Shown: piece by piece, positions 17,159 to 53,130 of the stretch
Numbering within the stretch: the first letter of the stretch is position 1
Layout of the letters: every line of letters starts with the position of its first letter
Source of the DNA: Proteiniborus sp. DW1
GTDB taxonomy: Bacteria; Bacillota; Clostridia; Tissierellales; Proteiniboraceae
Assembly (NCBI RefSeq): GCF_900095305.1
Contig: NZ_FMDO01000007.1
Location: 124,001 to 188,000, forward strand
DNA length: 64,000 nucleotides
Reading direction: 5' to 3'
Made by a program: the position numbers and the translations under genes
The notes under the pieces: generated by a model
Seen by the model: the letters and a program-made list of their open reading frames with translations, nothing else
The model's database searches: none
What the model was told of the DNA's origin: nothing

Positions 17159-17180
17159 AAAAGGAAAAACATATATGAAA

Positions 17181-17250
17181 ACTCATATATACCCTAGAAT
17201 ATGGCTAGGGAGTCTCTACCGGATTACCGTAAATTATCCGACTATGAGTG
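17181..17250 (+). promoter_or_regulatory. Guanine-type purine riboswitch aptamer (guaB leader)
   Basis: The P1 arms CTCATA (17182-17187) and TATGAG (17243-17248) enclose the conserved ATATGGCTAGGG-AGTCTCTACCGG and ACCGTAAAT loops of the purine riboswitch. The core reads CCGACTATGAG; the C in GACTATG marks guanine/hypoxanthine specificity, as opposed to the T of adenine switches. Its place before guaB fits feedback control of GMP synthesis. Confidence 0.95.
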
Positions 17251-17369
17251 GAATATAATAGCTAGAATAATAGCAAATTCTAGTGATTATTTGACTTTCA
17301 AAAAAATGACTGACATAAAATCATGAACTTTTGCTATTGGCTTGTGCTTTTAAGTACACATTTCCACTC
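17246..17369 (+). promoter_or_regulatory. Antiterminator pairing of the guaB riboswitch
   Basis: GAGTGGAA (17246-17253), which overlaps the 3' strand of P1, is exactly complementary to TTCCACTC (17362-17369) in the loop and upper stem region of the terminator. A second helix, AATAGCAAA (17269-17277) with TTTGCTATT (17330-17338), would bring the two together. Guanine binding would hold the P1 strand and free the terminator. Confidence 0.65.
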
Positions 17370-47009: not shown

Positions 47010-47100
47010 GTATAAGAGGATTGAAAAAGAATAATGAACCATAGAAGGAAATTTTAGGATTTTGTTGAATATAAGAATTAGAAGTGGAAGGAGTGATTAT

Positions 47101-47928
47101 ATGTGTATATATGGTGTTATAAATATAGATATGATTAATTCAAGAAAATTATCCAATAGGTCAAATATTCAATCTGATCTTAAAAATTATATTCGATTAG
47201 TTAATTCTAATTATCAAAAATATCTTTTGGCTCCAATAACAATTACTTTAGGTGATGAATGGCAAATTGTAGTAAAGGATCTTTCTAAGAGCTATAAATT
47301 TGTTGAATTATTTCAAAAATTTCTTGAAAAATATGAAGTTGATATTTATGCAGGAATTGGAGTAGGAACTTTGAGTACTGAAATTTATGAAGACACAAGA
47401 CTTATGGATGGAGAGTGCTTTATTAAAGCTAGAGAGGCCTTGGACATTGTCAAAGATAATAATAGATTTTATCAAAAGTTATTACATAGTAATGTGAATA
47501 ATGTGTTTTTTAAAGGTAGTGAGATTTTTATTCATAAGTTAGATACAGTTACAGATGACTCAAGGAAAGAGTACGCTTTTGATGAAGTAGCAGCTTCAAT
47601 GGTCATAGCTGATTCACTTGATTGTTTTGGAGACTCAAATAATTATAGTGACGATGTATCTTTAAATATGATTATTAATGCCCTAATTGAAAATACAGAA
47701 GTACTAAAAAGGAGAATCACTAAAAAGCAATTTGAAATAATAGAACTTTACAAAAAAGAGGGGTCATACAACAATATTATTAAAAAGAATCCAAATATTT
47801 CAAAAGCTAGTATAAGTCAAAAGTTACATGCATCAAACTATTTTCTTATAGAAAATAATAGGTTAATAATAGATAAGCTTTTTAAGGTATATCATGAAAT
47901 AAGGAAAGGTAATAAAAATGAGATTTAG
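47101..47928 (+). CDS. satD: SatD family protein with C-terminal helix-turn-helix
   Basis: This 275-residue protein matches the SatD family. It opens IYGVINIDMINSRKLSNR, has the conserved ITLGDEWQ near residue 60 and DGECFIKAREALDI near residue 118. The last 80 residues look like a winged helix (TKKQFEIIELYKKEGSYNNI, then SKASISQKL), so it may bind DNA. SatD was named for secretion and acid tolerance in streptococci; its biochemical role is unsettled. ATG 47101 follows GGAAGGAG. A broken DUF3307 membrane gene, the usual partner of satD, overlaps its end. Confidence 0.8.
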   Translation: MCIYGVINIDMINSRKLSNRSNIQSDLKNYIRLVNSNYQKYLLAPITITLGDEWQIVVKDLSKSYKFVELFQKFLEKYEVDIYAGIGVGTLSTEIYEDTRLMDGECFIKAREALDIVKDNNRFYQKLLHSNVNNVFFKGSEIFIHKLDTVTDDSRKEYAFDEVAASMVIADSLDCFGDSNNYSDDVSLNMIINALIENTEVLKRRITKKQFEIIELYKKEGSYNNIIKKNPNISKASISQKLHASNYFLIENNRLIIDKLFKVYHEIRKGNKNEI

Positions 47929-48151
47929 AATTTTATTATTATTGATCCTTGGACATCTATTAGGGGACTTTATATTTCAATCTAAATATATTCTTCAGAG
48001 AAGATTTAGCAAAATCAATAGCTAGATTTAAGAAATTAGATAATGATGAATTTGTAGAATATTTCATAATAGGGACTTTTCTTAGCTTTATCTCTGCTAT
48101 AATTGGAGGAATGATTATATATTCTTTAGATGTCATCCCAGTCATCAAATA
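47918..48151 (+). pseudogene. DUF3307 membrane protein gene with internal deletion and frameshift
   Basis: An ATG at 47918, overlapping satD by 11 bases, starts LLLLILGHLLGDFIFQSKYI, the recognisable beginning of DUF3307 proteins. After about 27 residues the frame is lost and a stop follows. The C-terminal end continues in another frame (EDLAKSIARFKKLDNDEF, then FLSFISAIIGGMIIYSLD) to TAA 48149-48151. Around 150 residues from the middle of the protein are missing. The gene cannot make its normal product. Confidence 0.7.
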
Positions 48152-48524
48152 AGATAATCATAGGGGAATTTATTGATTTAGCTAGTTTTATTGCTTCTCG
48201 TGCTCTATAGAATGATGGACCGTCTAGTTGATTAACTGTTAACTCAAAGTTATGAATACTAACATCTCCTATTCCAATACCTACATAGAATTTTATATCT
48301 GGAATATATTTTTTAAAGAAGTTGATTATGTTCAAATAATCACATGGATATCTCAGCAAACCTTGCCACTCGTCCCCCAAAGTAACGATAAATGGAGATA
48401 GTATTATATCATTGTATTTCTTGTTTACTTCTTTTAGCATGTCTATAATTTTGTATTGTATTTCTTCTCTATTTTTGATTTTTCTAGATGAACAAATGTC
48501 ACATATCATAGTGCAATAAGTCAT
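48126..48524 (-). CDS. Truncated second SatD-like protein
   Basis: This 132-residue protein is a second SatD N-terminal domain, diverged from the one at 47101. It has DICSSRKIKNREEIQ, VTLGDEWQGLLR and DGPSFYRAREAIKLAK. The C-terminal half with the helix-turn-helix is missing, and the frame ends inside the remnant of the DUF3307 gene on the other strand. A strong TAGGAGG precedes the ATG, so the N-terminal domain may still be produced. The convergent, broken arrangement implies an inversion or deletion between two satD loci. Confidence 0.7.
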   Translation of the reverse strand: MTYCTMICDICSSRKIKNREEIQYKIIDMLKEVNKKYNDIILSPFIVTLGDEWQGLLRYPCDYLNIINFFKKYIPDIKFYVGIGIGDVSIHNFELTVNQLDGPSFYRAREAIKLAKSINSPMIILFDDWDDI

Positions 48525-48544: not shown

Positions 48545-48624
48545 GGTTAAGCATATCAACTTAACCAGCAACAGGTTAAGGTTTTAGACTTAACCTGTTG
48601 CTGGTTAAAGTTTTAAGCTTAACC
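48545..48624 (-). promoter_or_regulatory. Operator-like array: six TTAACC/GGTTAA half-sites
   Basis: GGTTAAG or GGTTAAA occurs at 48545, 48574 and 48603 and CTTAACC at 48560, 48589 and 48618, alternating with steps of 15 and 14 bases. This makes three 29-bp units and a 20-bp perfect inverted repeat (48561-48580 with 48589-48608). It lies just upstream of the truncated satD copy on the minus strand. Multiple regulator dimers are expected to bind side by side. Confidence 0.75.
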
Positions 48625-48939: not shown

Positions 48940-48969
48940 TTAGTTGTGGTATTTAAAAATAATATTGTG

Positions 48970-49037
48970 CCCATATAAATCTCAGGATATGGCTGAGAAG
49001 TTTCTACCAAGTGACCGTAAATCACTTGACTATGGAT
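48970..49037 (+). promoter_or_regulatory. Guanine-type purine riboswitch aptamer (pur operon leader)
   Basis: CCATA and TATGG form P1. In between are the conserved ATATGGCTGAGAAG-TTTCTACC and GACCGTAAATCAC elements. The core TTGACTATGG has the C that specifies guanine. The aptamer is followed eight bases later by a second aptamer of a different class. Confidence 0.95.
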
Positions 49038-49043
49038 GAAAGT

Positions 49044-49158
49044 GTACCTAGGGTTCCGAGGTGCTTATTAGCATTTGTCTGGTCCGAGCGGTACAGATAT
49101 TACTATGCTTATTTTAAAGTAATATTACACCTTGGGGATAAAAGCCCGGACGGGTAGG
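49044..49158 (+). promoter_or_regulatory. ykkC-family riboswitch, probably the PRPP-sensing subtype
   Basis: The ykkC core is present: CTAGGGTTCCGAGG at the 5' side, CTGGTCCGAGCGGTAC in the middle and CCTTGGGGATAAAAGCCCGG at the 3' side. Members of this family sense guanidine, ppGpp, PRPP or nucleotides. Placement directly after a guanine aptamer and before purine genes matches the known tandem guanine-PRPP arrangement. PRPP is therefore the best assignment. Confidence 0.85.
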
Positions 49159-49197
49159 TTTCACATATAGTGAAACTTACTCTGTCCGGGCTTTTTT
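49141..49197 (+). terminator. Shared terminator of the tandem riboswitch
   Basis: AAAGCCCGGAC (49141-49151) pairs with GTCCGGGCTTT (49184-49194), extended inwards by GTAGGTTTCAC with GTGAAACTTAC. The stem is about 24 bp long and ends in T residues. Its 5' arm is the same AAAGCCCGG that belongs to the ykkC aptamer, so ligand binding and termination exclude each other. Confidence 0.9.
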
Positions 49198-49199
49198 GC

Positions 49200-49346
49200 A
49201 TTGTAACTTAAATCAAATATAGGCATAAAGGAATTGAAATAAGTAAGAATAGTTAACAGGTATGATATTAAAGGAATATCTAGTATAGTCTATGAAAAAA
49301 CTTTAAGAAGTATATTTTAGAGCCTAATAAGGATTTGTATGTGAGG
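49200..49346 (+). pseudogene. Relic of a second purL 5' end
   Basis: This stretch aligns with 49427-49577 inside purL. One frame reads GIKEL-K-stop-VRIVNRYDIKGIS and SIVYEKTLRSIF, where PurL has GIRELEEVRVLSRYDIQGIS and DAVYEKAIKNIF. It contains an in-frame stop and a one-base deletion. Amino acids are conserved better than bases, so it was once translated. The ribosome binding site of the present purL lies at its 3' end. Confidence 0.8.
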
Positions 49347-49356
49347 AGTGATGTTT

Positions 49357-52300
49357 TTGGATAAGCAAGTAAGAAGAATTTTTGTTGAGAAGAAAAAAGG
49401 ATTTGATGTAGGAGCAGAACAGCTATTTAATGACTTAAACCAAAATCTTGGCATAAGAGAATTGGAGGAAGTGAGAGTTTTAAGTAGGTATGATATTCAG
49501 GGAATATCTGATGCAGTATATGAAAAAGCTATAAAAAACATATTTTCAGAGCCTAATATTGATTTAGTACATGAGGAAGAATTGCCTATAGGCCAAGACT
49601 ACAGGGTTTTTGGAGTTGAGTACCTTCCTGGACAATACGACCAGAGGGCAGATTCTGCTGCTCAATGTATAGAAATACTCGGTACAGGAGAGAGACCTAC
49701 TGTTAGAACTGCTAAAATAATCATGCTTAAAGGAAATATAACAGATGAAGAGTTAATAAAGATAAAAGACCATTGTATAAACTCTGTAGACAGCAGAGAA
49801 TCAATCCTTACAAAGCCAGAAACATTAGAAGATAATAGTATACCTCCAAATGATGTAGATATAATCAAAGATTTTATCCAAAAATCTACAGAAGAACTAA
49901 TGAGTTTTAAGGAAAAAACAGGGCTTGCTATGAGTCTTGATGACATAAAGTTTTGTCAAGATTATTTTAAAAACACAGAAAAGAGAAACCCTACAATAAC
50001 TGAAATAAAAGTCATAGACACATACTGGTCAGACCATTGTAGACATACTACCTTTATGACTGAAATAGATGACATAAAATTTGAAGAAGGTGTCTTTAGT
50101 AGACCCATAAAAAAGGCATATGAAGAATACCTAGCTTCTAGAAACTATGTCTATGAAGAAAATAGAGCTATTTGCTTAATGGATATTGCAACTATAGGAA
50201 TGAAGGAGCTTAGAAAAAGAGGATTATTAGATGACTTAGATGTTTCTGATGAAATAAATGCATGTAGTATTAATATAGATGTGGAAGTTGATGGAGAAAT
50301 CGAAAAATGGCTTCTTATGTTTAAAAATGAAACACATAATCATCCTACTGAAATAGAACCTTTTGGAGGAGCATCTACATGCTTAGGAGGAGCCATAAGA
50401 GACCCCTTATCAGGAAGAGCCTATGTCTATCAAGCAATGCGTATTACAGGTAGTGGAGATCCAAGAAGGAAAATAGAGGATACTATTCCAGGTAAGCTAT
50501 CTCAAAGGAAAATCACTACAGAGGCGGCAAGAGGCTATAGCTCTTATGGAAATCAGATAGGTATAGCTACAGGACATGTATCTGAAATATATCATGAAGG
50601 CTATGTAGCGAAGAGAATGGAGCTGGGAGCTGTTATAGGAGCTACACCAAAGGAAAATGTAGTTAGAAAAGCACCAAAAGAAGGAGACTTAATTGTCTTA
50701 ATAGGAGGAAGAACAGGAAGAGATGGCTGTGGGGGAGCCACAGGTTCATCAAAGTCTCATACTGATGAGTCAATCCGAACAAGCGGTGCGGAGGTCCAGA
50801 AAGGAAACCCCTTAATCGAAAGAAATCTTTTAAGATTATTTAGAAAACCTGAATTTAGCAAGATAATAAAAAAATGCAACGATTTTGGAGCTGGTGGAGT
50901 ATCAGTTGCCATTGGGGAGTTGGCTGATAGCATAGAAATTAACCTAGATAATGTACTAAAAAAATATGAGGGCTTAGATGGAACAGAACTAGCTATATCA
51001 GAATCACAGGAAAGAATGGCTGTAGTTATAGACAAAGAACATCTTCACATACTGGAAGAACATGTTGCAGATGAAAATTTAGAGGCTGCAGTAATAGCTA
51101 AGGTAACTTCAAATAATAGGTTAATTATGAAATGGAGAAATAAAACAATATTAGACTTAGATAGGGATTTTTTAAATACTAACGGAATTAGACAAAAAAC
51201 TAAAGTCTATGTGAAGGAGCCTACTTCTAGAAGTTATTTCAACACAACATATTGTGGTGGATCTAATGAAAGTAAACTTAATCTTAAGACTGCTTGGTTA
51301 AATAATCTAAAGGCTTTAAATGTAGCTAGTCAAAGGGGATTAGTAGAGGAATTTGATAGTACGGTAGGGGCAGGTACAGTGTTAATGCCTTTTGGGGGCA
51401 AATACAATCTAACACCATCACTAGGAATGGCAGCGAAGATTCCAGTATTAAATGGAGAGACGAATACTTGTAGCCTTATGACTTATGGATTCAATCCAGA
51501 GCTTTCTACTTGGAGCCCATTCCACGGTGGATTATATGCAGTAGTTGATTCAGTTGTAAAGATAGTGGCGATGGGGGGAGACCCTAAAAAAATAAGACTT
51601 ACATTCCAAGAATACTTTGAAAAGCTAGGGGACCATGAGGAAAAATGGGGCAAACCCTTTGCAGCCTTACTTGGTGCATTTAAGGCTCAAAAAGGATTTA
51701 TGGTACCTTCCATTGGTGGTAAGGACAGTATGTCAGGAAGCTTTAATGAGCTTAATGTTCCACCTACATTAGTAAGCTTTGCAGTATGTATAGGAGATGC
51801 AAGCCATATTATTTCACCAGAATTTAAGAAAACAGACAGCCAAGTAATATTACTTAGTTCACCTAGAATGGAAGACGAGACTCCTGATTTTGAGACTCTT
51901 AATAAAAACTTACTTTGTATCCATGACCTCATCAAAAAAGGAAAAGTATTATCAGCTCATAATATAGGAATAGGTGGTATTGCAGCAGCCATAAGCAAAA
52001 TGAGCTTCGGAAACAAAATAGGAATGAAGTTTTTAGAAGGATATAAAACCGAAAAGCTATTTTCTCCTGATTATGGTGCATTAGTGCTAGAAATTAATAA
52101 TACTGAAAATCTAAATGACTTATTCAAGGGACTAGAATATGAAATAATAGGACACACCACAAAAAATCCAACTATAACTATTGGAGATGTGCATATTGAC
52201 ATAGAGCTAGCTATAAACGAATGGGAAGAGCCCTTAAAAGACGTATTTCCTATAAAAAAAGATACAGAAGGAACACCTAAGAAGATTAGCTATAGTAAAG

Positions 52301-53130
52301 GAAATATTATTAAACCTAAATACGCTATTGCAAAACCAAAGGTGTTTATGCCAATTTTCCCAGGTACTAATTGCGAATATGATATGGAAAAAGCCTTTGT
52401 AAAAGCAGGAGGACAAGTTGAGACATTAGTATTTAAGAATTTGACTAGAGAGGCAATAGAGGAGTCCATTCACGAAATGGCTAGAAGAATAAGTGAGAGT
52501 CAAATAATAGCTTTACCAGGTGGTTTTAGTGCAGGTGATGAGCCAGATGGTTCAGGAAAATTCATAGCAACAGTATTCAGAAATCCATATATTCAGGAAC
52601 AGGTCATGAATTTAATTAAAAATAGGGATGGTTTAATCCTTGGAATATGTAACGGATTTCAAGCTCTCATAAAGCTTGGACTTGTGCCATATGGGGAAAT
52701 AAGAGAGATAGATGAAAATTCACCAACTCTTGTATTTAACAAACTAGGAAGACATGTTGCCCGTATGGTCCAGACAAAGGTAGTGTCTAATCTATCACCA
52801 TGGTTAAACAATGTGAATGTAGGAGATGTGTTTACGATACCTGTATCACATGGAGAAGGCAGACTAGTATCTGATGAAAAGATTCTTAATGAAATGATAG
52901 AAAAAGGACAAATAGCTGCTCAGTACGTTGACTTTAATGGAAATCCTAGCTACGACGGGGACTTTAACCCAAATGGTTCACTCCACAGCATAGAAGCAAT
53001 CACAAGTCCAGATGGAAGAGTGCTAGGAAAGATGGGACATTCAGAGAGAATAGGGAAGAATCTTTATAAAAATGTCTATGGAGAAATGGATCAGAAGATA
53101 TTTGAAGCGGGAGTTAGGTATTTTAGATAA
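49357..53130 (+). CDS. purL: Phosphoribosylformylglycinamidine synthase, single-chain type
   Basis: This 1257-residue enzyme makes FGAM from FGAR, glutamine and ATP, the fourth step of purine synthesis. The synthase part includes TYWSDHCRHTTF near residue 226, NETHNHPTEIEPFGGAST near residue 325 and GGRTGRDGCGGATGSSKS near residue 450. The C-terminal glutaminase domain has MPIFPGTNCEYDME near residue 998 and the nucleophile in ILGICNGFQAL near residue 1094. TTG 49357 is chosen because GGAG lies eight bases before it; ATG 49351 is too close to that site. The gene is under the tandem riboswitch. Confidence 0.96.
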   Translation: MDKQVRRIFVEKKKGFDVGAEQLFNDLNQNLGIRELEEVRVLSRYDIQGISDAVYEKAIKNIFSEPNIDLVHEEELPIGQDYRVFGVEYLPGQYDQRADSAAQCIEILGTGERPTVRTAKIIMLKGNITDEELIKIKDHCINSVDSRESILTKPETLEDNSIPPNDVDIIKDFIQKSTEELMSFKEKTGLAMSLDDIKFCQDYFKNTEKRNPTITEIKVIDTYWSDHCRHTTFMTEIDDIKFEEGVFSRPIKKAYEEYLASRNYVYEENRAICLMDIATIGMKELRKRGLLDDLDVSDEINACSINIDVEVDGEIEKWLLMFKNETHNHPTEIEPFGGASTCLGGAIRDPLSGRAYVYQAMRITGSGDPRRKIEDTIPGKLSQRKITTEAARGYSSYGNQIGIATGHVSEIYHEGYVAKRMELGAVIGATPKENVVRKAPKEGDLIVLIGGRTGRDGCGGATGSSKSHTDESIRTSGAEVQKGNPLIERNLLRLFRKPEFSKIIKKCNDFGAGGVSVAIGELADSIEINLDNVLKKYEGLDGTELAISESQERMAVVIDKEHLHILEEHVADENLEAAVIAKVTSNNRLIMKWRNKTILDLDRDFLNTNGIRQKTKVYVKEPTSRSYFNTTYCGGSNESKLNLKTAWLNNLKALNVASQRGLVEEFDSTVGAGTVLMPFGGKYNLTPSLGMAAKIPVLNGETNTCSLMTYGFNPELSTWSPFHGGLYAVVDSVVKIVAMGGDPKKIRLTFQEYFEKLGDHEEKWGKPFAALLGAFKAQKGFMVPSIGGKDSMSGSFNELNVPPTLVSFAVCIGDASHIISPEFKKTDSQVILLSSPRMEDETPDFETLNKNLLCIHDLIKKGKVLSAHNIGIGGIAAAISKMSFGNKIGMKFLEGYKTEKLFSPDYGALVLEINNTENLNDLFKGLEYEIIGHTTKNPTITIGDVHIDIELAINEWEEPLKDVFPIKKDTEGTPKKISYSKGNIIKPKYAIAKPKVFMPIFPGTNCEYDMEKAFVKAGGQVETLVFKNLTREAIEESIHEMARRISESQIIALPGGFSAGDEPDGSGKFIATVFRNPYIQEQVMNLIKNRDGLILGICNGFQALIKLGLVPYGEIREIDENSPTLVFNKLGRHVARMVQTKVVSNLSPWLNNVNVGDVFTIPVSHGEGRLVSDEKILNEMIEKGQIAAQYVDFNGNPSYDGDFNPNGSLHSIEAITSPDGRVLGKMGHSERIGKNLYKNVYGEMDQKIFEAGVRYFR

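Follow-up and report, generated by a model that had tools for sequence, protein, structure and literature searches.

The purine operon of Proteiniborus sp. DW1 carries, between the terminator of its riboswitch leader and its first gene, purL, a decayed copy of part of purL itself. On balance, we take this relic to be the untranslated, decaying 5' remnant of a second, once-functional purL of the same genus, the body of which would have been lost across a short AGGA joint.

Results

The window, that is, the whole 64,000-nucleotide stretch analysed (NZ_FMDO01000007.1, 124,001-188,000), holds the operon purL-purE-purF-purM-purN-purH-purD-purC; the gene names from purE to purD and purC are our own reading of the sequences and of synteny, the family-library check covering purL only. 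The 5' end of the operon consists of a guanine aptamer, then a ykkC-family aptamer and then a strong terminator. The features discussed here, in window coordinates, are:

48951-49052, + strand: guanine-type purine riboswitch aptamer (Rfam RF00167, 87.2 bits)
49037-49154, + strand: ykkC-family aptamer (Rfam RF00442, 67.1 bits)
49143-49197, + strand: intrinsic terminator (expression platform) with T6 at its end (fold -40.4 kcal/mol, z -10.4)
49205-49347, + strand: purL relic, codons 26-74
49344-49347, + strand: AGGA, likely joint, common to relic codons 73-74 and the Shine-Dalgarno region (compared with 49574-49577 and with the leader of congener G002)
49345-49348, + strand: Shine-Dalgarno of purL (GGAG), in the position it has in congeners
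49357-53130, + strand: functional purL, 1257 aa, TTG start (TIGR01857, 1878 bits)

The guanine type is assigned by the C at the specificity position of GACTATGG, a base read by eye. The ykkC-family aptamer is predicted from its context, in tandem with the guanine aptamer and before purL, to be of the PRPP type; the subtype is thus one of gene context, the Rfam model itself carrying the name Guanidine-I. The guanine aptamer lies immediately upstream of the ykkC aptamer (subtype 2b by context) and the two have one common terminator, the tandem guanine-PRPP arrangement. A second purine riboswitch is found at 17163-17264, upstream of an ORF that resembles guaB (IMP dehydrogenase). The purL of DW1 is 82% identical to that of G002, 77% to that of G001 (both congeners) and 71% to that of G016, and its start is probably the TTG at 49357, which aligns with ATGGATAAG of the congeners, rather than the GTG at 49348.

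The relic is a pseudogene fragment of purL

The ~150 bases that separate the terminator from purL resemble the 5' part of that gene. The counterpart of the relic inside purL is window 49432-49577, and the DNA identity between the two is 74% in the multiple alignment and 77% by BLASTN, in which 49206-49347 of the leader matches 49433-49577 with an E value of 2.6e-21. Local alignment of 49200-49356 with purL gives a score of 71, against a mean of 15.5 (sd 1.8) and a maximum of 24 for 1000 dinucleotide shuffles, a score that rules out chance similarity. The 792 other 157-base stretches of the window score 23 at most and the reverse complement of the relic stretch scores 14. A translated search with the first 99 PurL residues also detects the relic in the DW1 genome (E 5.2e-9). 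The relic thus combines the two properties of a pseudogene fragment, significant similarity to purL and a broken frame without a start, codons 1-25 being absent.

An initial annotation of this DNA had matched 49200-49346 to 49427-49577 and had called for an alignment against shuffled sequence; the match is borne out by that alignment, with its borders at 49205-49347 and 49432-49577. It had also described an in-frame stop and a one-base deletion, and these are indeed present as a TAA at 49240-49242 and a deletion near 49318, along with two further one-base gaps near 49217 and 49334. The further claim, that amino acids are better preserved than bases in the relic, holds weakly: the residue is unchanged in 27 of 45 codons, where 22.2 (sd 2.1) would be expected from randomly placed changes (P 0.017), and part of this excess is due to constraint on the living gene.

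The relic is confined to DW1 and the Shine-Dalgarno site is older

In G001 and G002 the guanine-PRPP leader is ~88-90% identical to that of DW1 and is conserved up to the terminator, which is followed within ~30 bases by the Shine-Dalgarno sequence and ATGGATAAG, with no relic between. A search of 249 genomes of the order gave no match at that place outside DW1, a translated search of 99 relatives with the first 99 PurL residues gave no upstream purL fragment of this kind, and the purL search of relatives found no genome in which this locus holds two copies of purL. Because the congeners are without the relic and no match exists elsewhere in the 249 genomes, it appears, in the data at hand, to be specific to the DW1 lineage. 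Other purL debris does occur in the order. A 3'-end fragment (G083:C1:1049170-1049331, residues 1204-1257, 50% identical) lies ~1.6 kb downstream of an intact purL in a genome of another family, and in a further genome (G035:C37:14070-17530) purL is in pieces with several stops and is apparently a pseudogene.

From Shine-Dalgarno to start, the sequence reads GAGGAGTGATGTTT-TTGGATAAG in the window, AAAGGAGTGTAACT-ATGGATAAG in G002 and AAAGGGGTGGCTTT-ATGGATAAG in G001. The GGAGTG before the purL start is common to DW1 and G002, and G001 has GGGGTG; by this comparison the Shine-Dalgarno site of purL is the ancestral one. The proposal of the initial annotation that this site was recruited from the HEEE codons of the relic therefore fails, a Shine-Dalgarno made of old coding sequence being ruled out by the congeners. 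Codons 73-74 of the relic would read GAGGAA, and they overlap the Shine-Dalgarno region only in the four bases AGGA. The functional congeners have GAGGAA codons, so the base that turns this into GAGGAG comes from the leader side of the joint. The four-base overlap is likely to be the signature of an illegitimate recombination event.

Comparison with the congeners shows that the sequence upstream of the leader is remodelled in the DW1 species. Two SatD-family ORFs, one full and one of N-terminal length, lie at 47062-48524 in inverse orientation and are 35% identical to each other; SatD has no match in G001 or G002, and at its position G001 has an apparent MATE-type transporter gene, as does G002 judging by the sequence just upstream of the leader. 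A 36-base inverted repeat with an 8-base loop (48545-48624), also upstream of the leader, is absent from the congeners. It is single-copy in the genome, which rules it out as a repeated element tied to the relic event.

Phylogeny and coding history of the relic

Placed on a backbone of the full purL of nine species, the relic fits five branches in and around the genus about equally well, families beyond are rejected (AU p<0.01) and G016 is borderline. Since the relic groups inside the genus, the tree indicates a within-genus origin with no outside gene involved. A fragment of foreign purL inserted upstream of an untouched native operon would be allowed by the structure alone, but the tree rejects placements outside the genus and its nearest family and, with them, a donor from beyond the genus; we regard this origin as very improbable. 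Site-pattern counts (8 own-like, 9 congener-like) gave no clear branching order.

The distances of the present purL to the congeners are those of purE, purF, purM and purH, with no phylogenetic conflict between them, and they stay constant along the gene, with no mosaic breakpoint in purL. There is thus no evidence of purL import, and the operon distances hold no sign of import of the whole gene. The initial annotation had supposed that the riboswitch once drove a different purL, later replaced, and had proposed trees for the relic and the full gene. The 5' end of a purL is indeed there, its tree position lies inside or around the genus, and a separate period of coding constraint is favoured (see below), but nothing in the present gene is evidence that it replaced another. 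Replacement may have taken place, but it is unproven.

Among first and second codon positions, differences between the relic and DW1's own purL fall on 3 of 43 sites that are invariant in nine functional genes and on 19 of 51 variable sites. A nucleotide model with a coding history beats neutral decay alone by 3.9-8 lnL (bootstrap P 0.005), and a codon model with equal mutation rates favours a coding history by 3.9 to 5 lnL; in a version of the codon model that allows stops, none of 200 null simulations was as extreme. Under equal mutation rates, the codon model puts the split ~30% down DW1's own branch; thereafter the relic was coding for most of its history, and a short dead phase takes up roughly 10-15% of the time elapsed. 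These figures rest on only 45 informative codons, gap-broken codons having been left out, which leans toward constraint. When the relic is given a free rate, slower than that of its neighbour's synonymous sites, neutral decay alone fits equally well (-647.54 versus -647.43), and in a simpler codon model the rejection of omega=1 reaches no more than about p 0.09. Under a clock, accordingly, the favoured course is coding constraint over most of the relic's separate history and brief decay at the end; pure decay fits as well once the clock is dropped.

Discussion

The same structure results from replacement by a congeneric homologue, from a tandem second copy later deleted or, if the clock is dropped, from partial duplication. 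The last is the simplest, a one-step route: ~235 bases of the present purL, from the Shine-Dalgarno to codon 74, would have been duplicated in tandem through AGGA microhomology, and the first copy, useless from birth, would have decayed neutrally and lost its start. The joint has the AGGA that this requires, at third positions the relic is nearest to the present purL (15 of 48 differ, against 23 and 19 for the congeners), and the unlinked and codon models both attach it best to DW1's own purL. Against it, the conserved first and second positions have changed too little for the third-position distance, given equal mutation rates. Coding constraint in the relic's separate history makes a second, once-functional purL more likely than a simple truncated duplication, a distinction that depends on the clock assumption. 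We therefore rank the second functional purL first, as the best explanation, and partial tandem duplication next, as a serious possibility that we would nevertheless not bet on.

If a second, full working purL was the source, its body would have been lost across the AGGA joint and the present purL, with its own Shine-Dalgarno, brought behind the remnant, either by one-sided (homology-facilitated illegitimate) recombination with DNA of a close relative or by deletion between two tandem purL copies. The remnant would then have lost its start and ~25 codons against the terminator and gained its stop and frameshifts, leaving today a ~140-base spacer in the 5' UTR, from terminator to ribosome binding site. 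A more specific version, in which sister species exchanged a core gene under riboswitch control through one-sided illegitimate recombination and the relic is a datable fossil of that event, the 5' end of the old gene having become new 5' UTR, seems to us doubtful.

Retention for a current function between riboswitch and purL, whether as spacer, as regulatory RNA element or as small peptide, might be suggested by the fact that the relic lies in the leader of an operon under tight regulation. However, the relic folds no more stably than expected (z 0.02), holds no structured RNA or new promoter above chance, is interrupted by frameshifts and a stop, and is absent from congeners with the same leader, so that such retention is improbable. 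As it has neither a special fold nor an intact frame, and a promoter signal no higher than chance, it is most likely a passive 5'-UTR spacer.

The relic is a real but ordinary scar of past DNA rearrangement, a minor instance of a gene turning over behind a regulatory RNA that is itself conserved, and it leaves views of riboswitches and PurL unchanged. It shows how 140 bases of dead coding sequence can enter a riboswitch leader while the controlled gene is retained. A literature search for earlier descriptions of such a case found nothing relevant. Bacterial gene-fragment relics from illegitimate or homology-facilitated illegitimate recombination have been discussed (PMC6382021), and the DW1 relic resembles them in being a truncated homologous copy beside an intact gene, with a joint of a few bases, frameshifts and a stop. 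It differs in lying between a riboswitch terminator and the controlled gene, and its recombination route is deduced rather than observed. The leader itself has the layout of the guanine-PRPP tandem riboswitch described for purine genes (Sherlock et al. 2018, PMC5912903), in that a ykkC-type aptamer comes directly after the guanine aptamer and a single terminator precedes purL; it is ordinary in this respect, and the relic downstream of it is the sole oddity.
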